Shown here: in pieces, positions 1 to 10,310 of the stretch
Numbering within the stretch: position 1 is the stretch's first letter
How the letters are laid out: every line of letters begins with the position of its first letter
Source: a virus
DNA length: 23,697 nt
Strand: one strand, 5' to 3'
IMG/VR virus record: IMGVR_UViG_3300021438_000071
Location: 1 to 23,697 of that record
Made by a program: the position numbers and the translations under genes
The notes under the pieces: model-generated
Seen by the model: the letters and a program-made list of their open reading frames with translations, nothing else
Told to the model about the DNA's origin: nothing
The model's database searches: none

Positions 1-257
1 TCAAAGCTGGCAAACTCCTCAGCGTTCAGGCCAAAGTGGTTGGCCATAGCCAGGATCATGTCGGCTTTAGTAACCCTGGCCTGACCCTTAGCCGCGGTCT
101 TTGGCACGTACACTCCCTCACGGGAGAGTTTTGCCACAATCGACCGCACCGATTTGCCAAACTGCTCAGCAATCTGCTCAGTGCTCGTGCCGGTCATGTA
201 CAGGCCAACGATTTGTTGGGTTTGCTCAGGGGTGTAGTTTACAGTCTTGTCAGTCAT
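1..257 (-). CDS. HTH DNA-binding-like protein, paralog A (3' end cut by window)
   Basis: The leftward frame is open from 257 to the window edge, so the C-terminus is missing (about 85 codons visible). The N-terminal half matches two other genes here (894-1220 and 4826-5152): an opening of the type TVNYTPEQTQ, then GKSVRSIVAKLSREGVY. The block from 'EQIAEQFGKSVRSIV' onward has the look of a helix-turn-helix. After the shared block this copy differs: a basic linker (VPKTAAKGQARVTKAD), then a segment ending near LNAEEFASF. Two ATGs are adjacent (260 and 257). I chose 257 because AAAGGA at 264-269 is then 6 bases away and the protein aligns with its paralogs. A promoter lies at 302-330. The role is inferred to be a small phage DNA-binding regulator; the family name is not certain. 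Confidence 0.8.
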   Translation of the reverse strand, partial: MTDKTVNYTPEQTQQIVGLYMTGTSTEQIAEQFGKSVRSIVAKLSREGVYVPKTAAKGQARVTKADMILAMANHFGLNAEEFASF

Positions 258-301
258 CATATGTCCTTTGTGTTTCGGTTTCTGCGCTGCGTTAAGATTC
301 T

Positions 302-330
302 ATTATACGCTTGTCAGAAGGGAATATCAA
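302..330 (-). promoter_or_regulatory. Leftward sigma70-type promoter for paralog A
   Basis: Read on the - strand: -35 TTGATA (325-330), a 17-base spacer, -10 TATAAT (302-307). It lies across the end of the acidic small gene 314-439, so paralog A can be transcribed separately from it. Confidence 0.65.
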
Positions 331-439
331 GATCAAAATTACTAGGGTCAACCGGGTAGTCTGGGTAGTGGCGGTGGTCGAATTCCTCATCCTTCCAGTC
401 GTCCCACCACTCCTCACAATCGTCTCTAAAGTCTTTCAT
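314..439 (-). CDS. Small acidic protein, 41 residues, unknown function
   Basis: Leftward ORF of 41 codons plus TGA. It is supported by a good ribosome site (GTGAGGAACCG directly before ATG) and by its own promoter at 464-492. By hand count 15 of 41 residues are Asp or Glu, with a Trp-rich patch (EEWWDDWKDEE, about residues 9-19) and a His/Tyr/Pro-rich tail ending in DLDIPF. It has no Cys-based metal site, signal peptide or membrane segment. I do not recognise a family. Such an acidic early phage protein could bind a basic host protein or mimic nucleic acid, but nothing in the sequence proves that. Confidence 0.65.
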   Translation of the reverse strand: MKDFRDDCEEWWDDWKDEEFDHRHYPDYPVDPSNFDLDIPF

Positions 440-463
440 CGGTTCCTCACTGTCTAAGATTCT

Positions 464-492
464 ATTATACAGGGATTGACCAGGCACTACAA
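464..492 (-). promoter_or_regulatory. Leftward promoter for the acidic small gene
   Basis: On the - strand: -35 TTGTAG (487-492, a weak match), a 17-base spacer, -10 TATAAT (464-469). The start codon at 439 lies about 25 bases beyond the -10 box. The sequence after the -10 (AGAATCTTA) is shared with the promoter at 302-330. Confidence 0.55.
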
Positions 493-631
493 TATTAAAT
501 TTTTTGTGGTTGGCCAGGCCACAGTTAAATTTACACTTGACACGGTTGCTCTAACACTGTACACTTGCTCGCGGCCAGCACCCTCAAGAATTTGCACTAG
601 ATTCGGCACTGGCGCAGCAGGCCTAGCGCCT

Positions 632-716
632 GCACCAAAGTGGTGCGCGATTGCACCAAAGTGGTGCGTGCCCCAACTTGGTGCGCCCCAGAACGGTGCA
701 TGCACCAAAGTGGTGC
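632..716. repeat. Iteron-like array of 15-base imperfect palindromes
   Basis: Three exact copies of GCACCAAAGTGGTGC (632-646, 653-667, 702-716) surround two degenerate copies (670-684 GCCCCAACTTGGTGC and 685-699 GCCCCAGAACGGTGC). Each is a short palindrome, GCACCA / TGGTGC around AAG. Successive starts are 21, 17, 15 and 17 bases apart. The array sits in a gene-free stretch (470-893) and is GC-richer than its surroundings. It could be an operator cluster or origin-type iterons; the sequence alone does not decide. The rest of 493-631 shows nothing else I can support. Confidence 0.8.
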
Positions 717-747
717 GCACCTGGCCGGTGCTTAGGGTAAACCCTAT

Positions 748-817
748 TAGGGAAAGTCCCTATGTTGTATTTTTGCAAAAACCCTTGACACGCGCCCAAT
801 TATACAAGTATAATTGG
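748..817 (+). promoter_or_regulatory. Regulatory cassette copy 1: operator palindrome plus rightward promoter
   Basis: Contains the palindrome TAGGGAAAGTCCCTA (748-762), the motif TGTTGTATTTTTGC (763-776), and a rightward promoter: -35 TTGACA (785-790), 18 bases, TATAAT (809-814). The -10 box lies in an inverted repeat with arms CCAATTATAC (796-805) and GTATAATTGG (808-817). The palindrome/TGTTGTA block is inverted relative to copies 2, 3 and 5. No rightward gene follows; a terminator is met at 857-884. Confidence 0.6.
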
Positions 818-819
818 CG

Positions 820-884
820 CCATTTTTAATTATATTTTTTATAATGATTTACATAAAATAAAAGCGGCAATTGCCGCTTTTATT
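820..884 (+). ncRNA. Possible short rightward RNA between promoter 785-814 and terminator 857-884
   Basis: The rightward promoter would start RNA near 820, and the palindromic terminator at 857-884 would end it after about 60 bases. There is no ORF inside. An AT hairpin (ATTATA 829-834 / TATAAT 840-845) precedes the terminator. The RNA is inferred only from promoter and terminator geometry. Confidence 0.3.
857..884. terminator. Bidirectional intrinsic terminator
   Basis: Perfect 28-base palindrome with arms AATAAAAGCGGCAA and its complement. The GC core is flanked by A and T runs on both sides, so it can end transcription in either direction. It lies 10 bases beyond the leftward stop of 894-1220. 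Confidence 0.8.
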
Positions 885-893
885 AAACCTGGA

Positions 894-1220
894 TTAAATA
901 GGTTTTGAATTTGCCAATGCCTCAAAAATTGCTTTTAGTGCAGATTTATTAGCCTTGGTCAGCGATTCAACGTCATTTTCTGGCAATCGGAGAATTGCAC
1001 CAATTGCATCAGCGTGCGCGTCTTTTTTAACCACCGGCTCGCCAGTTTTTGTTTTATATTGTTTTTTCTGATAAACACCCTCACGCGAAAGTTTAGCAAC
1101 AATCGAGCGAACAGATTTACCAAATTGCATAGCCAATTGCTCAACGGCAACACCAGATTGATAATCGGCAATCAGGCTTTGGGTTTGTTCTTGGGTATAG
1201 TTTACGGTTTTTTCAGTCAT
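894..1220 (-). CDS. HTH DNA-binding-like protein, paralog B (108 residues)
   Basis: Leftward gene preceded by CGGAG and a promoter at 1245-1273, and closed by the terminator at 857-884. Residues about 26-50 (EQLAMQFGKSVRSIVAKLS and on) look like a helix-turn-helix. This is followed by a basic segment (KKQYKTKTG, 52-60) and an acidic, helical C-terminal part rich in Lys and Ala. By hand alignment it is identical to 4826-5152 at 90 of 108 positions. Residues 34-108 differ at only three positions, although the DNA carries many silent differences. Most amino-acid change is in the first 33 residues, where partner or operator choice might differ. The role is inferred to be transcriptional regulation; the family is not named with certainty. 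Confidence 0.88.
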   Translation of the reverse strand: MTEKTVNYTQEQTQSLIADYQSGVAVEQLAMQFGKSVRSIVAKLSREGVYQKKQYKTKTGEPVVKKDAHADAIGAILRLPENDVESLTKANKSALKAIFEALANSKPI

Positions 1221-1244
1221 TGCGTTTTCTCCGAGTAAGTGTAT

Positions 1245-1273
1245 ATTGTACAGTAGTCTAGCGGTAAAATCAA
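1245..1273 (-). promoter_or_regulatory. Leftward promoter for HTH paralog B
   Basis: On the - strand: -35 TTGATT (1268-1273), a 17-base spacer, -10 TACAAT (1245-1250), followed by CGGAG and the ATG at 1220. No terminator separates it from 1281-1622, so read-through from the upstream operon is also possible. Confidence 0.6.
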
Positions 1274-1280
1274 GTCTAAA

Positions 1281-1622
1281 TTATTCGTGGTCTAGGTCAG
1301 CAAGGTAAATATTAGGCAAATCAAATGCGTGTTTCATTGCAATTGCCATCATAATAAAATTATTACCATGCCATTCTACAATCTTATTCTCCTGCTGCCA
1401 TGCATGAATTAATTCGTGGGCAATCAATTCGTCAATTGTACGCCGAGCGGTAATATCCTGATTGCCCAGATATAGGGTAATCTTATGCGCTTTTAAATTA
1501 CCGCGATTACTAAACTTTGGCAAATAAACTGCATCCGAATGTTTATTGCTTTTAGTTTTAAAAGTCAATTCCACGGGAAATTGCAGTTTTAAAAACTCAA
1601 TGTAATATGCGAGGTTTTCCAT
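1281..1622 (-). CDS. SprT-like zinc metalloprotease 1 (113 residues)
   Basis: The zinc protease motif HELIH (H69, E70, H73) is clear, with a further His at 85 in EWHGNNF that suits the third metal ligand of the SprT/SPRTN fold. The protein is short and consists of the catalytic core only, with no C-terminal Cys-type zinc ribbon. I chose the ATG at 1622, one base after the TAA of the upstream exonuclease (TAAAATG), because it gives tight coupling. A longer frame to 1688 would overlap that gene and adds 22 unlikely residues. SprT-like proteins cut proteins bound to DNA in other organisms; the substrate here is unknown. Position next to an exonuclease suggests a DNA metabolism operon. Confidence 0.85.
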   Translation of the reverse strand: MENLAYYIEFLKLQFPVELTFKTKSNKHSDAVYLPKFSNRGNLKAHKITLYLGNQDITARRTIDELIAHELIHAWQQENKIVEWHGNNFIMMAIAMKHAFDLPNIYLADLDHE

Positions 1623-1623
1623 T

Positions 1624-2325
1624 TTAGATTGCCTTGTAAAAATCTTTGACTTGAAAGTTTTTCCAGTTATGTGCGATAATGTTATCACGCCAATTGCGAC
1701 GTTTTAGAATATTGACCAAGATTGGCAATTCGAAATCTTGTGCATCTTCTAATGCGGTATGGGGTTCTTCAATAAACTCGCCATTAAGAAAAGCAAAAAC
1801 AGATTCCGCAGTAGTTTTAATGGACATATTGCCCAGTTTAGTCGGAGCATTAAAAAGATGATTGTTTAATGCAAATTGACGATAGGGCTTTTTGCAAATA
1901 TTGCCAATAGCGGCTTGCCATAGGCAAAACGATTCTGCAAAACCCGACAAGTCAATACCGGTATTCTGGCATTTTTGTTTATCAAACACCAGATTGTAAG
2001 CGGTTAATGTAGGATTGTATTTACCAATGGCTTTTTGAATCCACGCATTGATCGCGGCAACAGACGCCAATTGCCGCCGACCTTGATCAAGCATTGCAAA
2101 ATATTCGGCTTGCTTTTTGCTTGCGTATTCACGCGACCACATCTCGGAATTGCTTTTTGTTTTGTCATAAAATAAATCCATTGTGTCAAAATGCCCGCGA
2201 ACCAATACCGCGCATTTTGTATAAATGCGACCATTGCGATCACAGATTACAATGGCAAAATCTGCAACAGTATCGTTGCAGGTGGTTTCAGTGTCGAGAA
2301 TTGCAAAAAACTGTTTTTTGGCCAT
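1624..2325 (-). CDS. DEDDh 3'-5' exonuclease, DnaQ-like (233 residues)
   Basis: All three exonuclease motifs of the DnaQ/RNase T type are visible: ExoI LDTETT (D11, E13), ExoII AYNLVFDK (N111, D115) and ExoIII HTALEDAQD (H189, D194), giving a DEDDh active site with two metals. The expected activity is 3'-5' removal of nucleotides from DNA or RNA. I chose the start MAKKQFFAILDT at 2325, since the family begins a few residues before ExoI. The open frame continues to 2520, but that part encodes the promoter and operator sequences (2365-2520) and is not protein. Ribosome site weak. It is first in an operon with the SprT-like gene, driven by the promoter at 2365-2393. Confidence 0.9.
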   Translation of the reverse strand: MAKKQFFAILDTETTCNDTVADFAIVICDRNGRIYTKCAVLVRGHFDTMDLFYDKTKSNSEMWSREYASKKQAEYFAMLDQGRRQLASVAAINAWIQKAIGKYNPTLTAYNLVFDKQKCQNTGIDLSGFAESFCLWQAAIGNICKKPYRQFALNNHLFNAPTKLGNMSIKTTAESVFAFLNGEFIEEPHTALEDAQDFELPILVNILKRRNWRDNIIAHNWKNFQVKDFYKAI

Positions 2326-2364
2326 GATATAGATTGTGAGCCAGGGCACGTCGCCCAAGTCATA

Positions 2365-2393
2365 ACTATACACGAATTTTCGGCCCATGCCAA
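2365..2393 (-). promoter_or_regulatory. Leftward promoter for the exonuclease/SprT operon
   Basis: On the - strand: -35 TTGGCA (2388-2393), 17 bases, -10 TATAGT (2365-2370). The spacer end GAAAATTCGTG is shared with the promoter at 5188-5216. Confidence 0.7.
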
Positions 2394-2398
2394 CAAGT

Positions 2399-2490
2399 GC
2401 AAAAATACAACATAGGGGATTTCCCCTATTGACAAAAAATTTTGGCCGTGGTAAAATTTTGGCGCCAAGCGTTGTATAAATACAACACAA
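2399..2490 (+). promoter_or_regulatory. Regulatory cassette copy 2a: motif, palindrome, rightward promoter
   Basis: Holds GCAAAAATACAACA (2399-2412), the palindrome TAGGGGATTTCCCCTA (2413-2428), then directly TTGACA (2429-2434), 17 bases, TAAAAT (2452-2457), GGCGCC and a partial GTTGTA..TACAAC repeat (2471-2486). Exactly 35 bases separate this -35 box from the leftward one at 2388-2393, as in copies 3 and 5. Confidence 0.6.
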
Positions 2491-2506
2491 ATTTTTCAAA
2501 TTTTGC

Positions 2507-2570
2507 TTGACGCGGCCCAAAATTATATGGTATAATTTTGGCGCAATGTGTTGTATTTTTACAACACATT
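2507..2570 (+). promoter_or_regulatory. Regulatory cassette copy 2b: second rightward promoter with two inverted repeats
   Basis: -35 TTGACG (2507-2512), 18 bases, TATAAT (2531-2536) with extended TGG. The -10 lies in an inverted repeat CCAAAATTATA (2517-2527) / TATAATTTTGG (2531-2541). This is followed by a hairpin AATGTGTTGTA (2545-2555) / TACAACACATT (2560-2570) that ends 5 bases short of the leftward stop codon at 2576. It points against the 2576-2758 gene. Confidence 0.6.
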
Positions 2571-2575
2571 TTATA

Positions 2576-2758
2576 TTAATCGTCAGAATTATCGCGATTC
2601 ATTATTTCAATTAATAAATCAATTTCACGTTCAAAGTCTGATTCCGTCCATTGGCTAGTATCAATCCAACGCGGACGCACGCCCATTGCATCCTTGTAAG
2701 CGTCCCAGTGGGTTATTGCCAATTGCTGCAATTTGGGTAATTGATCCCAGGGTATCAT
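2576..2758 (-). CDS. Conserved-type phage hypothetical protein, 60 residues
   Basis: Starts with ATG overlapping the stop of the upstream gene by one base (TAATG). It contains WDAYKDAMGVRPRW (about residues 18-31), a pattern I associate with small conserved phage proteins of unknown function, and an acidic C-terminal helix (ESDFEREIDLLIEIMNRD). No membrane segment or catalytic motif. Last of a three-gene operon after a HAD phosphatase. Confidence 0.75.
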   Translation of the reverse strand: MIPWDQLPKLQQLAITHWDAYKDAMGVRPRWIDTSQWTESDFEREIDLLIEIMNRDNSDD

Positions 2759-2853
2759 TATACAGCCCCAATAAAGGTAAGATAAGCGATTGCAAAAACG
2801 CTGGCAATCAGCGCATAAAAAACAATTCGATCTGGATCGTTATTGTTTGTCAT
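2758..2853 (-). CDS. Very small single-pass membrane protein, 31 residues
   Basis: ATG at 2853 lies one base past the TAA of the HAD gene, with AAGGAC as ribosome site. A polar start (MTNNNDPDR) is followed by about 20 hydrophobic residues (IVFYALIASVFAIAYLTFIG) and almost no tail, so it is probably a single inner-membrane helix. The longer frame back to 2967 overlaps the HAD gene and is unlikely. Function unknown. Confidence 0.6.
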   Translation of the reverse strand: MTNNNDPDRIVFYALIASVFAIAYLTFIGAV

Positions 2854-2854
2854 T

Positions 2855-3334
2855 TTAATGTCCTTGTTTGCTAGGAATATACTCGCCGCGAATATTAAAG
2901 TAATCGCATACCGCTTTAAGATAATGCACGTTATCCTCATAGAAAACAACGTCATCCATTGCGGCAAGATTAATATTAGCCGTTTTGAAACATTCGATCA
3001 AGCCGTTAATCTTTAGCGTGGAACCTGATTGTTGATCGTCACGAGTGCGCGAGATAACATAATCGGGAACACCTAAAACCTCGCGCATAAACTGCCAATC
3101 GGGTTCATTCATAACCCGCGCAGTCGCAATGATAGTATAACATTCTGCGTCCATGCAATCTTGCTGATATTTATCAGCCAGTGGCAATAGGCCATCCAAC
3201 ATTGCCAAGTGTTGATGATCTCGCCAGTAGCCAATATCAATGCGCTCGCCTGCGTCGGTGAGAATAGTCCGATAACGGTGGCTTGAATCCACAATAGTGC
3301 CGTCCATGTCATAGATAGCGATTCGCTTGATCAT
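2855..3334 (-). CDS. HAD-superfamily phosphatase, polynucleotide 3'-phosphatase-like (159 residues)
   Basis: HAD motif I is YDMDGTIVD (nucleophile D9, D11), motif II is IIATAR (T71), a Lys at 108 suits motif III, and FYEDN (E133, D134) is motif IV. Size and motif layout resemble the phosphatase half of T4 polynucleotide kinase and related phage HAD enzymes, suggesting removal of 3' phosphates from nucleic acid ends. A nucleotide or small-molecule substrate is also possible. I chose ATG 3334 because GGAAG precedes it and motif I falls at residues 8-14. The open frame back to 3436 covers promoter sequence. It is the first gene after the promoter at 3366-3394. Confidence 0.85.
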   Translation of the reverse strand: MIKRIAIYDMDGTIVDSSHRYRTILTDAGERIDIGYWRDHQHLAMLDGLLPLADKYQQDCMDAECYTIIATARVMNEPDWQFMREVLGVPDYVISRTRDDQQSGSTLKINGLIECFKTANINLAAMDDVVFYEDNVHYLKAVCDYFNIRGEYIPSKQGH

Positions 3335-3365
3335 CTTGCTTCCTTGCGTTGTGTCCATGTAGAGA

Positions 3366-3394
3366 ATTATACACGAAAAATCGGGTTGTGCCAG
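3366..3394 (-). promoter_or_regulatory. Leftward promoter for the HAD phosphatase operon
   Basis: On the - strand: -35 CTGGCA (3389-3394), 17 bases, -10 TATAAT (3366-3371), followed by TCTCTACATGG, also seen in near form at 4073. Confidence 0.7.
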
Positions 3395-3399
3395 GTTTT

Positions 3400-3491
3400 G
3401 CAAAAATACAACATTAGGGGAAACCCCTATTGACACGCTCCAATTTTACATGGTAAAATTGGCGCCACAGGTGTTGTAAATTTACAACACC
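3400..3491 (+). promoter_or_regulatory. Regulatory cassette copy 3: motif, palindrome, rightward promoter, hairpin
   Basis: GCAAAAATACAACA (3400-3413), palindrome TAGGGGAAACCCCTA (3415-3429), -35 TTGACA (3430-3435), 18 bases, TAAAAT (3454-3459). The -10 lies in the repeat CCAATTTTAC (3440-3449) / GTAAAATTGG (3453-3462). A perfect 22-base palindrome with arm GGTGTTGTAAA follows (3470-3491). The cassette faces the 3' end of the leftward gene at 3504. Confidence 0.65.
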
Positions 3492-3503
3492 CTGGCTTGT
3501 TAT

Positions 3504-3683
3504 TTATTCAATAACGAATTCCAATTTACGCTTTACGGTAATTGGTTGAACCTTAAACCATTCCAGATCGTCAAAATCTGCATCGGTTAATTCAAAACCG
3601 AATTGCAAGTCTTGCCAAACTTCGTCAATTGAATTACCCATTGACATAATGTCATCACCATTAATGCTTTTTGCCATAAACAT
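3504..3683 (-). CDS. Small acidic hypothetical protein, 59 residues
   Basis: Third gene of the 4046-3504 operon. AAAGGAG in the end of the upstream gene is only about 2 bases from an ATG at 3689 (which overlaps that gene's TGA) but 7 bases from the ATG at 3683, so I chose 3683 (start MFMAKSINGDD). The middle is acidic with aromatic residues (ELTDADFDDLEWF). No recognised motif. A small inverted repeat GTTATT/AATAAC (3499-3515) spans the stop codon. Confidence 0.7.
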   Translation of the reverse strand: MFMAKSINGDDIMSMGNSIDEVWQDLQFGFELTDADFDDLEWFKVQPITVKRKLEFVIE

Positions 3684-3685
3684 AG

Positions 3686-3883
3686 TCATTCTCCTTTACC
3701 AAAGTATTGTTTAGCATCAATCAAATGTTTTGCAGTGCGATAAACTCTAGTTAACAGTGCATTATAATCCAATTCTATCATCTCGTGCATTTTAACAGAT
3801 TCTACAAAGTAAATCAATTCGTCACGAGTTAATTGCGAGGTTTCAAACCTTGCAGCCTGTTCAATTAAATGAAATTTATTCAT
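3686..3883 (-). CDS. Hypothetical helical protein, 65 residues
   Basis: I chose the start MNKFHLIEQAARF at 3883, where its ATG overlaps the last codons of the upstream gene; the earlier ATG at 3901 has no ribosome site. Predicted to be mostly helical with charged and hydrophobic residues alternating (TRDELIYFVESVKMHEM). No catalytic motif seen. Middle gene of a three-gene overlapping operon. Confidence 0.7.
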   Translation of the reverse strand: MNKFHLIEQAARFETSQLTRDELIYFVESVKMHEMIELDYNALLTRVYRTAKHLIDAKQYFGKGE

Positions 3884-4046
3884 CGCCAAATCCCCAACCA
3901 TTAAACAGTTTAGCCAATTTTGAACGCTTTTTATTTGGAATAACCCTAGGCTTAAATGGGCTATTTACAAATAGTGGTTTATGCGCCCTAGCATCTGGTT
4001 TGCTGGCCCGCTTCATTGCTAATTCTAAATGCAGTTTAGTCGCCAT
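3876..4046 (-). CDS. Small basic hypothetical protein, 56 residues
   Basis: Leftward ORF with CGGAG before ATG 4046 and the promoter at 4073-4101 upstream. Lys/Arg-rich throughout (KRASKPDARAHKP; PRVIPNKKRSKLAKLF), ending in GWGFGDE. The charge suggests nucleic-acid or membrane-surface binding, but no family is recognised. Its stop codon lies inside the next gene's start (ATGAATAA), which suggests translational coupling. Confidence 0.7.
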   Translation of the reverse strand: MATKLHLELAMKRASKPDARAHKPLFVNSPFKPRVIPNKKRSKLAKLFNGWGFGDE

Positions 4047-4072
4047 CGTTTTGTCTCCGATCCATGTAGAGT

Positions 4073-4101
4073 ATTATACAGGGTTTTCTAGATTGTGCAA
4101 G
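4073..4101 (-). promoter_or_regulatory. Leftward promoter for the 4046-3504 operon
   Basis: On the - strand: -10 TATAAT (4073-4078); at 17 bases the -35 is CTTGCA (4096-4101), a weak match. It resembles the 3366 promoter downstream of the -10. Confidence 0.6.
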
Positions 4102-4110
4102 CCCGCCAAG

Positions 4111-4230
4111 TGCGACACGGTGTCGCAGGGTTTCCCCTAGTGTTGTATTTTTGCCCAAAGGGTTGACACGGGCTGCCAATATTATGGTATAATATTGGCG
4201 CCAGCGTGTTGTATTTTTACAACACCTGGC
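4111..4230 (+). promoter_or_regulatory. Regulatory cassette copy 4: extra inverted repeat, rightward promoter, hairpin
   Basis: An additional near-palindrome TGCGACAC-g-GTGTCGCA (4111-4127) comes first, then TTTCCCCTAG and TGTTGTATTTTTGC (4141-4154) in the inverted orientation. The rightward promoter is TTGACA (4163-4168), 19 bases, TATAAT (4188-4193), within arms GCCAATATTAT (4175-4185) / ATAATATTGGC (4189-4199). The hairpin GCCAG-c-GTGTTGTA / TACAACAC-CTGGC (4200-4230) lies 5 bases from the leftward stop at 4235. Confidence 0.65.
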
Positions 4231-4234
4231 CATA

Positions 4235-4441
4235 TTAAATTACATAACGAACAATTCCGATTACGTTGGCAATTAAAAATGCGCCATTTAATACGCCTAA
4301 TGCTTTATCACGTCGCGCTATTGCAATTATTAACCATGATATTGTACCAGTGATAAAACAGATATATCCCCAATTCATTAATCCGAAAGCAACAAGAAAA
4401 GATCCCGCTATGCTGGCAATTGTGCCAATCCATGCCAACAT
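4235..4441 (-). CDS. Small polytopic membrane protein, 68 residues
   Basis: Two to three hydrophobic segments: about residues 3-22 (ending in GSFLVAFGLMNW), 24-41 (FITGTISWLIIAIA) and 50-66 (LNGAFLIANVIGIVRYV), separated by a short basic turn (RRDK). The layout resembles small phage membrane proteins sometimes labelled PnuC-like fragments, but it is too short for a full transporter. Start codon overlaps the stop of the SprT-like gene (TAATG). Function unknown; an inner-membrane location is likely. Confidence 0.75.
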   Translation of the reverse strand: MLAWIGTIASIAGSFLVAFGLMNWGYICFITGTISWLIIAIARRDKALGVLNGAFLIANVIGIVRYVI

Positions 4442-4803
4442 TATAATTCCATGTCGTGATAGGTAACGGGATCAACGCCATAGTCTAACATTATTTTTTG
4501 CCATGTTCTACCATGCCAGCGATTGCCTTGTGGTACGCCATTAAGGTTATAGTCTACCTGATGCGCTATTTCATGTATCAAAATTTCGCCTAGCATACGA
4601 TCATAATGCTTATCGAAAAACTTAGTACCTAAATCAATGTAATTTGCTTCCATAAAGCAACGCCCTGCTGTTTTTGTAAGCCTACCATTAAGTTTAATGG
4701 TAGGCTTATCAAAGCCTAGCAACCCAGTATAAATGCTAGTATAACGAACCCATATCTTAGTCGCCTGAGCCTGAATGGTGGCGTTTAGTGTTGCGATGGT
4801 CAT
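4441..4803 (-). CDS. SprT-like zinc metalloprotease 2 (120 residues)
   Basis: Zinc motif HEIAH (H77, E78, H81) with a downstream His (H97, in RWHGRTWQKIM) matches the SprT pattern of HExxH followed by a further His before a conserved Trp. TAGRCF at 45-50 fits the strand preceding the catalytic helix in this family. Compared with SprT-like gene 1 (1281-1622) it is clearly different in sequence, so the window holds two distinct members. The start at 4803 has AGGA about 9 bases upstream. It lies in the operon 5152-4235 between an HTH protein and a membrane protein. Substrate unknown. Confidence 0.87.
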   Translation of the reverse strand: MTIATLNATIQAQATKIWVRYTSIYTGLLGFDKPTIKLNGRLTKTAGRCFMEANYIDLGTKFFDKHYDRMLGEILIHEIAHQVDYNLNGVPQGNRWHGRTWQKIMLDYGVDPVTYHDMEL

Positions 4804-4825
4804 GGGTTCGTTATCCTATGGTTAC

Positions 4826-5152
4826 TTACAGTGGTTTGCTATTAGCCAATGCGTCAAAGATCGCTTTAAGCGCGCTCTTATTAGCCTTGGTCAGCGATTC
4901 GATGTCATTCTCAGGCAAGCGCAGGATTGCGCCAATTGCATCAGCATGAGCATCTTTTTTTACAACGGGTTCACCCGTTTTTGTTTTGTATTGCTTTTTC
5001 TGATACACGCCTTCGCGTGACAGTTTAGCAACAATTGAACGAACGGATTTACCCATTGCCAATGCAATGCTTTCGACAGTAATGCCAGCGGCATAGTCTG
5101 CGATAACCTGAGCGGTTTGCTCTGGGGTATAGTTTACGGCTTTTTCTGCCAT
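4826..5152 (-). CDS. HTH DNA-binding-like protein, paralog C (108 residues)
   Basis: Same length and layout as 894-1220: NYTPEQT start, predicted helix-turn-helix with GKSVRSIVAKLSREGVY at residues 34-50, basic stretch 52-60, conserved C-terminal part. Canonical ribosome site AAGGAG before ATG 5152. It is first in its operon and nearest to the divergent control region, so it is well placed to be an early regulator. Acidic or conservative changes separate it from paralog B at 18 positions, 15 of them in the first 33 residues. Confidence 0.88.
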   Translation of the reverse strand: MAEKAVNYTPEQTAQVIADYAAGITVESIALAMGKSVRSIVAKLSREGVYQKKQYKTKTGEPVVKKDAHADAIGAILRLPENDIESLTKANKSALKAIFDALANSKPL

Positions 5153-5187
5153 TGCGCTCTCCTTGTGAGTGCTGTTTCGATGTAGTA

Positions 5188-5216
5188 ATTATACACGAAT
5201 TTTCGCCGTGTGCCAA
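5188..5216 (-). promoter_or_regulatory. Leftward promoter for HTH paralog C operon
   Basis: On the - strand: -35 TTGGCA (5211-5216), 17 bases, -10 TATAAT (5188-5193). Best match of the leftward series. Confidence 0.75.
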
Positions 5217-5221
5217 GAATT

Positions 5222-5281
5222 GCAAAAATACAACATAGGGGGAAACCCCTATTGACGCGCACCCATTTTATATGGTATAAT
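5222..5281 (+). promoter_or_regulatory. Regulatory cassette copy 5: motif, palindrome, rightward promoter
   Basis: GCAAAAATACAACA (5222-5235), palindrome TAGGGGGAAACCCCTA (5236-5251), -35 TTGACG (5252-5257), 18 bases, TATAAT (5276-5281) with the same TATATGG before it as copy 2b. This copy lacks the right half of the -10 inverted repeat and the TGTTGTA hairpin. It is the only copy that points toward rightward genes. Confidence 0.6.
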
Positions 5282-5482
5282 ATTAAATAGGTTTATTACA
5301 AATAATATAACTAGGGCGGTTATTAGACATTATGAATAATATAACTATATGGACCCCCCAACACGGCCAACTTTAGGAATTTTTTCCGCAAAACTTTCGG
5401 TGCCAAAGCCAATACAAATATTATATCATAACAATCGCCAAAATTCAAGAAAATTTTTCCCAACACCACAAAATTTTCAACC
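5282..5482. other. Divergent intergenic region without a convincing gene
   Basis: It holds a 13-base direct repeat AATAATATAACTA (5301-5313 and 5335-5347). It also has a leftward promoter-like pair: -35 TTGAAT (5443-5448), 17 bases, TATAAT (5420-5425) on the - strand. The only start codons give ORFs of about 14 residues in either direction, so no coding sequence is called. Confidence 0.5.
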
Positions 5483-5511
5483 TTGACAACTTAACCCTAA
5501 GGTGTTATACT
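5483..5511 (+). promoter_or_regulatory. Rightward promoter of the first rightward operon
   Basis: -35 TTGACA (5483-5488), 17 bases, -10 TATACT (5506-5511), followed by GGAGGT and the ATG at 5534. It is not part of a TAGGGG cassette, so it may be under different control from the early promoters. Confidence 0.75.
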
Positions 5512-5533
5512 CTTAGGAACTGGAGGTCACACC

Positions 5534-5686
5534 ATGGAAATTATCGAGTTAATGCTAAAAGCTTGGCCAGTATTTGTAGCCTTTATTATGATTGTAGTCC
5601 TTTTCGCCAAGGCCGACATGCGCCTGGGTGTTTTGGAGGAAAAGGTAAAAACCTTATTTGATCTCTACAACAAGGGTCAGAAGTAA
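5534..5686 (+). CDS. Small single-pass membrane protein, 50 residues
   Basis: Strong ribosome site (GGAGGT, 6 bases before ATG) directly after a promoter. One hydrophobic helix at about residues 9-25 (KAWPVFVAFIMIVVLFAK) is followed by a charged helix with heptad-like spacing (RLGVLEEKVKTLFDLYN), i.e. N-terminal anchor and short cytoplasmic or periplasmic coil. Holin-like or spanin-like proteins can look like this, but no specific family is recognised. It ends 2 bases before the next gene. Confidence 0.75.
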   Translation: MEIIELMLKAWPVFVAFIMIVVLFAKADMRLGVLEEKVKTLFDLYNKGQK

Positions 5687-5688
5687 TC

Positions 5689-6471
5689 GTGGCACACTAT
5701 CGTGCTATTTTTATTAGTGACGTGCACTTGGGTACTAGGGCTAGTAAAGCAGAGTATCTTAGTAATTTCCTAAAATCCAACACCTGCGATGAACTTTACC
5801 TAGTAGGTGATATTATTGATGGCTGGAAGGTCAAGCAGAATAAGCTGCGCTGGGCAAACTCACACACCAATGTAGTGCGTCATGTCTTAGCCAAAGCCAA
5901 TCGTGAAAAAACTCGAGTCATATATGTAGCCGGTAATCATGATGAATTCCTCAGACCACTAATTAGCTACGGACTTAAATTTGGCCGGGTAGAGGTGGTA
6001 AACCAGTGTGAATACGTAGACGTAGAGGGTCGCCGCTGGTTAGTGACTCACGGCGATATGTTTGACGGCATTACCCGCTTAGCACCTTGGTTAGCTTGGC
6101 TAGGTGACAGCGCCTATGATTTTGTCTTAGGCCTAAACACACACTTTAATCAGTGGCGGCATAGGTTGGGCTTTGGCTATTGGTCACTATCACAGTGGTT
6201 AAAGGGCAGGGTAAAACGCGCGGTCGACTTTATCTTTAAATTTGAGCAGACTATTACCAAATACGCTGAAAAGCGCAAGTTTTTTGGTGTTATCTGCGGC
6301 CATATTCATCAGGCTGAAATTAAGCTGGTTGGTGACGTAGGTTATATGAATTCGGGCGATTGGGTAGAAAGCTGCACTGCACTAGTAGAGCACGAGAGTG
6401 GTACTTGGGAAATCATAACTTGGAGGCCCAATAGTGTGGCTACTAATACTTCTAGCAGTACATCAGAGTGA
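5689..6471 (+). CDS. LpxH-like metallophosphoesterase (UDP-2,3-diacylglucosamine diphosphatase family), 260 residues
   Basis: All calcineurin-type metal motifs are present in order: DVH (D11, H13), GDIID (D41, D44), GNHDE (N83, H84), HGD (H121) and GHIH (H205, H207). The whole protein, including LVGDIIDGW, GYWSLSQWLK and NSGDWVES, resembles the proteobacterial UDP-2,3-diacylglucosamine diphosphatase group, which cleaves a lipid A precursor at the inner membrane. Whether the phage enzyme acts on that substrate or another glycolipid is unknown. The start is GTG at 5689 with AAGGG some 12 bases upstream. The glycosyltransferase at 6589-7587 follows, as in some betaproteobacterial genomes, so the pair was probably acquired together to alter the host envelope. 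Confidence 0.88.
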   Translation: MAHYRAIFISDVHLGTRASKAEYLSNFLKSNTCDELYLVGDIIDGWKVKQNKLRWANSHTNVVRHVLAKANREKTRVIYVAGNHDEFLRPLISYGLKFGRVEVVNQCEYVDVEGRRWLVTHGDMFDGITRLAPWLAWLGDSAYDFVLGLNTHFNQWRHRLGFGYWSLSQWLKGRVKRAVDFIFKFEQTITKYAEKRKFFGVICGHIHQAEIKLVGDVGYMNSGDWVESCTALVEHESGTWEIITWRPNSVATNTSSSTSE

Positions 6472-6607
6472 CCCTAAGGACGTGCCAGGCCGCGTGACCT
6501 TAGAGTTTGCAACTCAAGAACAGTGCATGTCGGCACAACGTAGTATCCAGTGGCAACTAAAGTTTCCACAATTTAAGGTGGTTGCACAATGTCAAAAACA
6601 GTCTTAA
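6434..6607 (+). CDS. Overlapping small protein, GTG start, 57 residues
   Basis: This ORF overlaps both neighbours: the last 38 bases of 5689-6471 and the first 19 of 6589-7587. GGAGG at 6422-6426 lies 7 bases before the GTG, an excellent site that serves no other start. The product begins with a short hydrophobic stretch (MWLLILLAVH) and then has a normal-looking mixed sequence with two Cys (EQCMSAQRS and VVAQCQKQS). The N-terminus resembles a short signal or anchor; a periplasmic or membrane-attached protein is possible. I recognise no family. Confidence 0.6.
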   Translation: MWLLILLAVHQSDPKDVPGRVTLEFATQEQCMSAQRSIQWQLKFPQFKVVAQCQKQS

Positions 6608-7587
6608 TAGTCACTGATAATGTCCCACAGCAAATTAACGGCGTGGTTACTACGTTCCACAACCTGGAATACCAAGCAAGTCGCTATGGCTATAACTTTG
6701 TATACTGTGATCCCCGGCAGTTCCCTAATTGTGGTGCTCCTGGTTATGGCGATATTAGGTTATCGTGGCCTAAAGGCATTGACGAGAAGCTTGAGGCCGT
6801 AGACCCTGATTATGTGCATATAGCCACTGAGGGTCCACTAGGCTTGGCAGCACGTTGCTGGATGGATCGCAATGGTTGGTTATATAACACCAGCTATCAT
6901 ACGCGAATCCCAGAAGCACTTAAACGCTACTATGGCGTACCAGAATCGTGGACCTATAAGTACTTGCGCTGGTTTCATAAACATAGTGGTAGGGTGTTAG
7001 CTACTACTGTGAGTATGGTTCAGGAGCTTAAGCAACGTGGCTTTAGAGACAACTTGGTGCCCTGGACCCGCGGTGTAGACCGTAGCCTATTCTGGCAGGG
7101 TCCGGGCAGCGGGAATAAGCAGCCTACCCTGCTCTGGGTTGGACGTGTGAGTGTGGAAAAAGGCTGCGAAGACTTTTGTAAACTGGAATACTTAGGTGCT
7201 CGGAAGATTGTGGTTGGTTCGGGGCCGCAGCTAAAGTACTTGGCTGCAAAATACCCTGAAGTTGAATTTGTGGGTGTTAAGGTGGGCAAGGAATTAGCCC
7301 GCTACTACCAAACCGCAGACTGCTTAGTATTTACCAGCCGCTGGGATACCTTTGGCATTGTAATGGTAGAGTCCATGGCTTGCGGTACACCAGTAGCAGC
7401 CTATCCAGTTTGTGGTCCACAGGATGTAATAGAACCTCAAAAAACCGGTGCCATTAGCCTAGACCTAAAAGCCGCAGTAGTGCAAGCACTAGCCATTCCA
7501 CGTGAAACTGTGCTAGTAAACAGCTATCACTGGTCTTGGGAACGGTGCTGGCGTATATTTGAAAATAACTTAGTGAGTAGAAGATGA
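6589..7587 (+). CDS. GT4-type glycosyltransferase (mannosyltransferase-like), 332 residues
   Basis: GT-B fold features are clear: N-terminal domain with NGVVTTFHNL (17-26), HIATEGPLGLAAR (77-89) and SYHTRIPE; C-terminal donor domain with VGRVSVEKG (R186, K191), GSGP, and DTFGIVMVESMACGTPVA, where D253 and E261 take the place of the E-x7-E donor-site motif. The protein is close in pattern to GT1/GT4 enzymes that add mannose or glucose to membrane lipids and to lipopolysaccharide-type glycans. It is somewhat short for the family (usually about 340-400). AAGGTGG precedes ATG. Its stop overlaps the small terminase start (ATGA), so it is translated in the same operon. Likely role: host surface modification, for example blocking superinfection (inferred). 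Confidence 0.88.
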   Translation: MSKTVLIVTDNVPQQINGVVTTFHNLEYQASRYGYNFVYCDPRQFPNCGAPGYGDIRLSWPKGIDEKLEAVDPDYVHIATEGPLGLAARCWMDRNGWLYNTSYHTRIPEALKRYYGVPESWTYKYLRWFHKHSGRVLATTVSMVQELKQRGFRDNLVPWTRGVDRSLFWQGPGSGNKQPTLLWVGRVSVEKGCEDFCKLEYLGARKIVVGSGPQLKYLAAKYPEVEFVGVKVGKELARYYQTADCLVFTSRWDTFGIVMVESMACGTPVAAYPVCGPQDVIEPQKTGAISLDLKAAVVQALAIPRETVLVNSYHWSWERCWRIFENNLVSRR

Positions 7588-8066
7588 ACCTGACCCCAAC
7601 CAGTGCACCCGCAGAAGTCTTGGAAATCTCGCCAGAAGCACTGGAAGTAGCTAACTGTTACCTGCAGTGCCAAGACGCACGTGCCGTAGCAGATAACCTA
7701 GACTTACCAGTTGAATCAGTCTCCAGCATCTTGAGTCGCCGTGAGGTCAAGGCCTATATCAACCAAGTTTTCTTTGACTTAGGGTTTAACAACCGCTTTA
7801 AGATGCGAGCGGCAATGGACGCTGTGCTCAAGCGCAAGTTTCAGGAAATGGAGGAGGCTGACGTTGGCTCCAACAAAGACATTGCCGAACTACTCGCCTT
7901 ATCACACAAAATGAGCATGGAATTGCTAGACCGTGAGATACAGCTGGAAAAGCTGCGTGCGGAGCGCGCTGGACCTAAGTCGCAGGTAAACGTGCAGATT
8001 AACGAGGGCGGAGACGGTACCAAGTACGGAGCGCTTATTAGCAGACTCCTAGGGGATAAACTATAA
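7584..8066 (+). CDS. Terminase small subunit, 160 residues
   Basis: Directly precedes and abuts the large terminase, which sets its identity. Residues about 15-50 (SPEALEVANCYLQCQDARAV..LDLPVESVSSILSRREVKAYI) read as a DNA-binding helix-turn-helix, followed by a long charged helical region (90-130) for oligomer formation and a C-terminal tail (GGDGTKYGALISRLLGDKL) that may contact the large subunit. It should recognise the packaging site on phage DNA and recruit the motor. ATGA overlap with the glycosyltransferase. Confidence 0.8.
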   Translation: MNLTPTSAPAEVLEISPEALEVANCYLQCQDARAVADNLDLPVESVSSILSRREVKAYINQVFFDLGFNNRFKMRAAMDAVLKRKFQEMEEADVGSNKDIAELLALSHKMSMELLDREIQLEKLRAERAGPKSQVNVQINEGGDGTKYGALISRLLGDKL

Positions 8067-9437: not shown

Positions 9438-9878
9438 ATGGACAAAACAGAATACTACCTAGAACTAAAGCGCGTTTTTGCTAGTGAATTTGCGTTTTAT
9501 CTTAAAAGTGCAAACTTTCATTGGAACGTGGAAGGTTCTGACTTTTATGAATTTCATCTCCTGTTCGAGCGTATTTATACTGAAGTCTATGGTGTGATCG
9601 ATCAATTTGCTGAAGAGTTGCGCGCCCTGCAACTTCAAGTTCCAGCTAGTTTTACACAGTTTTTGCAATTAACTTATGTCTTAGATCAAACAGTGCCTGG
9701 CGATTCAAAAGCCCTGGTGCAAGAGTTGCTAATGGATTCGGATACAATGGCCATGAAGTTTCAGCAATTGTTTATGATGGCTGAGGAAGCTGGCGATCAT
9801 GGCTTATCGAACTTCTTGGCTGATCGTCAAGATGCACATAAAAAACACAGTTGGATGTTGCGCGCTAGTTTAAAATAA
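9438..9878 (+). CDS. Dps-like mini-ferritin, 146 residues
   Basis: Four-helix Dps pattern: NFHWNVEGSDFYEFHLLFERIYTEV fits the first helix of Dps when split at H28 and H40. Using the Dps spacing of the ferroxidase centre (His, +12 His, +16 Asp, +27 Asp, +31 Glu), the residues here are H28, H40, E44, D55 and E59; only the +16 Asp is changed, to Glu. The site should therefore be able to oxidise iron. There is no Lys-rich N-terminal tail such as E. coli Dps uses to bind DNA. Dps forms 12-subunit shells that store iron and remove peroxide. A role in protecting phage or host DNA during infection is inferred. It has its own promoter and abuts the HNH gene. Confidence 0.88.
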   Translation: MDKTEYYLELKRVFASEFAFYLKSANFHWNVEGSDFYEFHLLFERIYTEVYGVIDQFAEELRALQLQVPASFTQFLQLTYVLDQTVPGDSKALVQELLMDSDTMAMKFQQLFMMAEEAGDHGLSNFLADRQDAHKKHSWMLRASLK

Positions 9879-10310
9879 ATGGCAAAGAATACAAATAAGC
9901 GGATTCCCGTCAAACACGTTAGAGATAAAGCCAAGTCGGCTTATGAAAAGCAAGACCATTGCTATATTTGCAACACAAGTCAGGACCTGGAATTACATCA
10001 CCTACACAGCGTTACCCTGTTGCTAGAAAACTGGGCTCGCCGTATGGGTTATGATATTTCAACTGATGAGGGAATTTTAGCTGTCAGGGACGAGTTTATT
10101 AGTGAACATCATAGTGAGTTATATGAACAGGTTTACACCCTATGTAATCCGCACCATGTAGCGCTCCATGGAGTGTACGGTAAGACTCCTCAGCCTGGCA
10201 GCGAACCCAAACAAGCGCGCTGGATTGAAATTCAACGTGACAAAGTTGCTGGTGGCAGTCGTGCTGTTCCTAAGCAAAGCTATGGAAGTTTCTTTAGCGA
10301 ATTTACTTAG
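9879..10310 (+). CDS. HNH-type zinc-binding protein, probable nuclease (143 residues)
   Basis: Zinc-binding pairs CYIC (C28, C31) and CNPHH (C89, H92, H93) bracket ELHHLH (H40, H41), an arrangement like an HNH nuclease with structural zinc, although the insertion between the halves (residues 44-80) is long. Placed between large terminase and portal, it matches the HNH proteins that many cos phages need for efficient DNA cutting during packaging. A homing-type nuclease is the other option. Starts directly after the Dps stop codon (TAAATG). Confidence 0.75.
   Translation: MAKNTNKRIPVKHVRDKAKSAYEKQDHCYICNTSQDLELHHLHSVTLLLENWARRMGYDISTDEGILAVRDEFISEHHSELYEQVYTLCNPHHVALHGVYGKTPQPGSEPKQARWIEIQRDKVAGGSRAVPKQSYGSFFSEFT

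Follow-up and report, generated by a model that had tools for sequence, protein, structure and literature searches.

The 23.7 kb virus fragment filed in IMG/VR as IMGVR_UViG_3300021438_000071 (23,697 nucleotides, hereafter the window) carries leftward operons separated by short gaps, and in these gaps lies a rightward sigma-70-type promoter that has no gene of its own. The present work deals with this element, here named the counter-promoter. Counter-promoters recur, on one strand and in a stretch adjoining the terminase, in a large group of uncultured T5-like phages; the terminase of the window is ~50% identical to terminases of Vibrio T5-like phages (113 kb). A tentative reading is that they keep neighbouring operons apart.

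Promoter cassettes of the window

The first-pass annotation described three intergenic cassettes in which a leftward and a rightward -35 stand back to back. Sequence reading combined with scans recovers all three: the opposed pairs at 2393-2388 (TTGGCA) and 2429 (TTGACA), 3394-3389 (CTGGCA) and 3430 (TTGACA), and 5216-5211 (TTGGCA) and 5252 (TTGACG) are each separated by exactly 35 bases. Every one of these gaps contains GCAAAAATACAACA followed by a TAGGGG..CCCCTA dyad, which touches the rightward TTGACA/G as had been described. The same annotation saw rearranged parts in two further regions, and there the block indeed turned out to be inverted (at 763 and 4141), lying 8 nt upstream of the rightward TTGACA (785 and 4163). 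The five rightward promoters it listed are all present, and, as it stated, they lack a gene; the total is nevertheless six, since the promoter at 2507 (TTGACG-18-TATAAT) had been overlooked. The features are as follows, with the strand in brackets.

748..776 (+): dyad TAGGGAAAGTCCCTA (748-762) and block TGTTGTATTTTTGC (763-776), 8 nt upstream of the rightward -35 at 785
785..821 (+): counter-promoter 1; TTGACA 785-790, TATAAT 809-814 within the palindrome CCAATTATAC-AA-GTATAATTGG, GGCGCC
861..890: hairpin GCGGCAATTGCCGC with T runs on both sides, bidirectional terminator-like by sequence reading, at the end of the leftward operon finishing at 894
894..1220 (-): HTH protein paralogue with a weak GcrA / D5-like match; candidate regulator by position alone
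2365..2393 (-): leftward gene promoter; -35 TTGGCA 2393-2388, -10 TATAGT 2370-2365
2399..2428: shared 30-bp block; GCAAAAATACAACA 2399-2412 and dyad TAGGGGATTTCCCCTA 2413-2428
2429..2486 (+): counter-promoter 2; TTGACA, 17 bp, TAAAAT 2452-2457, GGCGCC; no palindrome; dyad GTTGTATAAATACAAC 2471-2486
2507..2570 (+): counter-promoter 3; TTGACG 2507-2512, TATAAT 2531-2536 in palindrome 2517-2541, GGCGC, hairpin 2545-2570
2855..3334 (-): HAD protein, homologue of T5 dmp (deoxynucleoside-5'-monophosphatase)
3366..3394 (-): leftward gene promoter of the dmp-like operon; -35 CTGGCA 3394-3389, -10 TATAAT 3371-3366
3400..3429: shared block; GCAAAAATACAACA and TAGGGGAAACCCCTA
3430..3490 (+): counter-promoter 4; TTGACA, 18 bp, TAAAAT 3454-3459 in palindrome 3440-3462, GGCGCC, dyad GTGTTGTAAATTTACAACAC 3471-3490
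4073..4078 (-): -10 TATAAT of the leftward promoter of the 4046-3504 operon, separate from the 35-bp cassette, by sequence reading
4128..4154 (+): inverted block; GGGTTTCCCCTAG and TGTTGTATTTTTGC (4141-4154), 8 nt upstream of the rightward -35
4163..4225 (+): counter-promoter 5; TTGACA, 19 bp, TATAAT 4188-4193 in palindrome 4176-4198, GGCGCC, dyad GTGTTGTATTTTTACAACAC 4206-4225
4826..5152 (-): second HTH paralogue
5188..5216 (-): leftward gene promoter of the HTH/SprT operon; -35 TTGGCA 5216-5211, -10 TATAAT 5193-5188
5222..5251: shared block; GCAAAAATACAACA and TAGGGGGAAACCCCTA
5252..5281 (+): rightward promoter; TTGACG, 18 bp, TATAAT, then ATATT; no GGCGC, no dyad

In four of the six rightward promoters (785, 2507, 3430 and 4163) a near-perfect palindrome encloses the -10, and GGCGC and a dyad come next, in that order. 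The promoter at 2429 possesses GGCGC and the dyad and lacks the palindrome. The one at 5252 has neither GGCGC nor dyad and is the only one of the six located away from the 3' end of a leftward operon; all visible leftward operon ends in the window have a rightward counter-promoter. At 5252, ATATT stands in place of the GGCGC of the counter-promoters. In T5 it is chiefly the discriminator that distinguishes early from late promoters, the early ones having ATATT (PMC7472727). A comparison of window positions 1-8000 with the DNA of cultured phages gave a single 103-bp match, outside the stretch described here. An inverted-repeat cluster of GCACCAAAGTGGTGC at 600-720 adjoins the last counter-promoter, and a similar cluster adjoins an orientation-2 site in locus L008.

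Recurrence of the counter-promoter in IMG/VR

The 20-mer GCAAAAATACAACATAGGGG is present in 29 IMG/VR contigs, the flanks of which align as one architecture. IMG/VR was scanned with two versions of the -10 palindrome plus GGCGC, a query that leaves the block and the -35 outside the pattern and so avoids selection on the block; at least 283 distinct sites were found. The contigs are related, and the counts given here are therefore of distinct sequences and not of independent events. A -35 matching at least five of the six bases of TTGACA lies exactly 18 bp upstream in 275 of 283 sites among the matches listed, which agrees with the 16-18 bp between the hexamers of sigma-70 promoters. In the 538 collected sites the spacer is 18 bp in 491 and 17 bp in 47. 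According to a simple caller of open reading frames (ORFs), the downstream ORF is convergent in 236 of 283 sites among the matches listed, with a median distance to the gene end of ~60 nt; part of the remaining non-convergent calls is spurious, for example the one at window 2519. A second, non-palindromic type of GGCGC promoter with a CACTTGACA..CACTGTATAAT core also occurs within the stretch. Promoters of the non-palindromic type, with repeated CACTTGACA/TTTGCACTGGCGC motifs, were seen near the outer HTH genes at window 537-610, L036 13010, and L040 1576 and 3231.

The element looks like an undescribed phage module separating neighbouring operons. It was not described in the open-access literature on antisense, convergent or palindromic phage promoters, subscription journals being outside the scope of that search. 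A host-encoded or prophage element was considered and rejected: the palindrome has 7 matches in 84,980 bacterial and archaeal genomes, and inspection by eye found TTGACA 18 bp upstream in none of them. Judged by sequence alone, the counter-promoter is similar to the rrn P1-type promoters, which carry a GCGC discriminator and are inhibited by ppGpp/DksA, in its A/T-rich upstream region, near-consensus hexamers and G+C-rich GCGC discriminator. It differs from them in having 0-6 bases between the -10 and GGCGC, a palindromic -10 and no stable RNA gene.

The promoter features, the palindrome and the dyad all occur far above chance. Palindromic arms of at least 8 were found in 146 of 284 sites chosen by neither pattern, compared with 1 of 284 when the spacer was shuffled. 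The palindrome has 54 different right arms, and changes on one side are matched on the opposite side (TTCGG/CCGAA, TTCTGG/CCAGAA), with the distance between -10 and -35 unchanged at 17-18 bp. A strong dyad follows GGCGC in 217 of 275 sites among the matches listed (7 of 275 after shuffling), mostly starting 0-2 nt past GGCGC, and its arms comprise 144 different sequences, again among the matches listed. Such diversity indicates that the RNA sequence itself is not conserved; since promoter, orientation and position are conserved, the element more probably acts in cis than through a trans-acting RNA. A search of the window and of loci L007 and L036 against Rfam 15 gave, above the gathering score, one tRNA in L007 and nothing else. 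Bidirectional intrinsic terminators of convergent units likewise place a hairpin between the end of a gene and a promoter facing it, but here there is usually no T tract and a strong promoter touches the hairpin.

These features also suit cis-antisense control, in which RNAs with a 5' stem-loop would pair with the 3' ends of pre-early mRNAs and later switch them off. Lambda OOP and similar phage RNAs are of this kind, being short, promoter-driven and opposed to the 3' end of an operon. The putative RNAs considered here would share that arrangement and differ in their many copies, one per operon end, and in their unconserved sequence. The promoter faces a gene end at close range, the dyad touches the presumed start as a stabilising 5' hairpin would, and the T5 annotation (A1 note) includes shut-off of pre-early genes. 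On the other hand, a terminator-like structure lies within 150 nt in the promoter's own direction in 191 of 511 sites (37%), as compared to 1 of 511 shuffled sequences and 3 of 168 random genomic pieces. The wobble pairs of the downstream dyad lend no support to a rightward RNA either: a cleaner count gave 50 A-C vs. 35 G-T (p 0.13). Wobble asymmetry was thus abandoned as a strand indicator, the first tally of 31 A-C vs. 15 G-T having fallen away. In the -10 palindrome the skew is towards G-T (29:4), which is confounded because the right arm is fixed by the promoter sequence. Cis-antisense control appears to be a serious alternative to insulation, although we consider it rather unlikely in itself.

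The spacers themselves may move. The 172-bp cassette at window 2398-2569 is 94% identical to L071 13741-13570, which occupies a different inter-operon position and has flanks of ~83% identity, so the cassette appears from this comparison to behave like an interchangeable spacer exchanged between non-orthologous inter-operon positions. One could suppose that the cassettes are recombination linkers, homogenised by exchange between operons and marking boundaries for gene shuffling, with transcription being incidental. Yet the exact 18-bp spacing, the strand bias and the ever-changing dyads are functional signatures that homogenisation would not be expected to leave, and this explanation seems improbable.

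The T5-like lineage and its shared block

Near-consensus promoters were listed on both strands of seven near-complete relatives of 77-102 kb. GCGC lies within 10 nt of the -10 in 58 of them, and 53 of these 58 fall in one stretch of 5.4-7.3 kb adjoining the terminase. All 53 are on the terminase strand and directed towards the terminase. A homologue of a window protein is encoded in 144 of 145 site-bearing loci among the matches listed. The counter-promoters are restricted to one phage lineage, the large group of uncultured T5-like phages. HTH paralogues of ~100 aa, with weak GcrA / D5-like matches, flank and punctuate the stretch (window 1-259, 894-1220 and 4826-5152), four copies being present in each of the seven relatives.

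The HAD protein of the window is 37.5% identical to T5 dmp over 88 aa (E 3e-11) and has matches in 535 phage records, many of them annotated as the monophosphatase. According to the T5 annotation, dmp belongs to the terminal repeat, the first-step-transfer region that enters the cell first. The stretch resembles the pre-early region of T5 (Demerecviridae) in its dmp homologue and in its position adjoining the terminase block. It differs in gene orientation relative to the terminase, and the T5 annotation shows no counter-promoter array of this kind; the T5 region is a terminal repeat with pre-early timing, whereas here both properties are putative. The contig ends of two ~99 kb relatives adjoin in another genome and the assemblies close as circles, which fits terminal redundancy. 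The switch from pre-early to later transcription in T5-like phages is still open (PMC7472727).

The kinship with T5 brings up DNA processing, i.e., that GGCGC marks single-strand nicks of the T5 type or sites of replication priming. T5 nicks are annotated as NPu|GCGCN, all sites here are on one strand, and the window encodes an HNH protein (9879-10310) with 40% identity to a Vibrio phage protein that is annotated as a nicking endonuclease; T5-like single-strand interruptions may therefore exist in this clade. However, A|GCGCAGGG is the context of all three T5 nicks examined, and this sequence is absent or single in these genomes. Moreover, GGCGC is not followed by AGGG here, and the promoter spacing would be left unexplained. 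A T5-type nick at GGCGC was accordingly rejected, and DNA processing in general is very improbable. Between the terminase and HNH genes lies a gene for a ferritin-like protein (9438-9878, Pfam Ferritin).

In some relatives the dyad is itself a Fur box, with parS sites behind it. The loci scanned for such sites total 2.4 Mb. In them the parS core GTTTCACGTGAAAC has 23 distinct occurrences and the strict Fur 7-1-7 box has 22; of these, 21 and 16, respectively, are found no more than 70 nt downstream of a GGCGC promoter. The parS 16-mer is the same as the consensus used in PMC10197239, and the box arrangement is that of PMC7536154. Locus L088 has several of each: parS cores stand at 749, 1625, 2368 and 3744, just past counter-promoters (and also in L099, L133, L152, L045, L005, L007 and others), and dyads fitting Fur 7-1-7 follow GGCGC directly at 1646, 2397 and 3772, as well as in others. 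In the first-step-transfer DNA of T5 (AY543070), position 233 has a perfect 7-1-7 Fur box, and Fur-like boxes follow one another at 9553-9719, within the injection stop signal and next to the major nick; the Fur boxes of some relatives are a likeness to that signal. Hence the dyads could be sites of various host proteins (ParB, Fur, other repressors), which would gate the promoters or be captured by them on incoming DNA. The array would then read or hijack host physiology through the first-entering DNA before phage proteins exist, the Fur-like boxes of T5 being a version of this. We hold both the explanation and this extension of it to be unlikely: parS and Fur sites are limited to sub-lineages, the window has neither, most dyads match nothing nameable, and until the phage DNA replicates, its few copies would be too scarce to titrate host proteins that are abundant. 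The parS and Fur sites may be a functional clue or a feature of sub-lineages only.

The back-to-back cassettes share the 30-bp block. In the window, TGTTGTATTTTTGC has five exact copies, all of them in these gaps, and eight copies at up to 2 mismatches (0.9 expected), while TAGGGGNNNCCCCTA at up to 3 mismatches has 14 matches vs. 4.1 expected. The 35-base block, for which a search in related phages had been advised, is conserved there. A TAGG..CCTA dyad touches TTGAC in 127 of 514 distinct upstream sequences of the relatives. GC(n)AAAATACAACA prevails among them, and 65 of these 127 sites have a leftward -10 at a distance of 28-29 nt; in the shuffled control no position exceeded 5. The outer bases of the dyad are kept, whereas the inner pairing is often broken; a covarying hairpin was rejected on this ground, the pattern being rather that expected of a protein-bound dyad. 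It is thus plausible from the pattern of conservation that one shared regulator acts at the block-bearing sites. DnaA boxes (TTATACACA/G) at the leftward -10 were also considered and dropped, perfect boxes being absent from the stretch in five of six genomes and present as one copy in the sixth.

One may go further and regard the block (GCnAAAATACAACA plus TAGG..CCTA) as the operator or upstream activating site of a single phage regulator co-ordinating the operons of the stretch, the rightward promoter being a by-product or a second target. The conservation just described agrees with this, as do the protein-site-like unpaired inner bases, the constant distance between block and -35 in the window (5 nt to a leftward one or else 8 nt to a rightward one) and the HTH paralogues encoded within the stretch. 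However, the block is missing from about three quarters of the rightward promoters, which makes the rightward promoter the more general of the two elements. The HTH paralogues are regulator candidates by position alone, and a fold search with the HTH model gave no match at E <0.001. The block could instead act as an A-tract UP element; where it is missing, the region from about -40 to -56 is rich in A/T, as in UP elements. We regard this explanation as possible but not probable. The first-pass annotation had assigned all early operons to one regulator. Its fixed-spacing block is conserved, but since the block occurs only within one 5-7 kb stretch adjoining the terminase, it cannot serve all early operons, and genome-wide early control is not upheld.

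The likeness to dispersed operators of mycobacteriophages, also drawn in that annotation, turned out to be loose. Operators of the L5 type (stoperators) are asymmetric sites scattered genome-wide and bound by one phage repressor. A repeated short inter-operon site, possibly bound by one protein, is common to both systems. Here the sites are clustered in one block of ~100 kb genomes and not scattered, are intergenic, keep a fixed spacing to promoters and are accompanied by a gene-less promoter.

A putative barrier between operons

The reading that we favour, at a probability of about 0.38, is that the counter-promoter acts as a cis-acting barrier between operons. A strong sigma-70-type promoter that encodes no protein stands in each inter-operon gap of the stretch, directed against the genes and into the 3' end of the neighbouring operon. 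Its layout is TTGACA, 18 bp, TATAAT or TAAAAT, and GGCGC, with the -10 inside a palindrome constrained by complementarity and a second dyad directly past the start point. RNA polymerase would be loaded there head-on to leftward transcription, and the dyad would stop, slow or release the rightward polymerase within the first tens of bases. As an outcome, read-through from one operon would be kept out of the next. At about one quarter of the sites the counter-promoter is joined back to back with the promoter of the next operon via the shared 30-bp block, which is probably bound by a regulator. In favour of the barrier count the exact promoter spacing at sites found by the palindrome, the convergent neighbouring ORFs, the clustering and strand bias in the seven relatives, the dyads with their unconserved arms, the terminator-like structures within 150 nt, the counter-promoter at every visible leftward operon end of the window (with 5252, away from such an end, devoid of GGCGC and dyad) and the interchangeable cassette of 2398-2569.

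Several points weigh against such a barrier. The intrinsic-terminator score is positive (d>0) directly downstream in 103 of 497 sites, and a terminator-like structure is present within 150 nt in 191 of 511, as compared to 8 of 10 annotated terminators of T5; most dyads are not canonical intrinsic terminators, and a prompt stop of the rightward RNA is putative at most sites. A polymerase sitting on the promoter should halt the leftward polymerase before the latter transcribes the dyad, so any part of the dyad in forming leftward 3' ends is conjectural. The covarying palindromic -10 is not explained by a barrier, and an effect of a cruciform or of supercoiling is a guess; competition of a cruciform with promoter opening is familiar from older work on engineered promoters. 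Finally, none of the phage-collection isolates has this region or the HTH gene.

If the barrier is real, these phages would keep their operons apart by opposing polymerases rather than by ordinary terminators, which would be unusual. The stretch adjoining the terminase offers a defined, clonable target. In the relatives that carry them, the parS and Fur sites would link the incoming phage DNA to proteins of the host.

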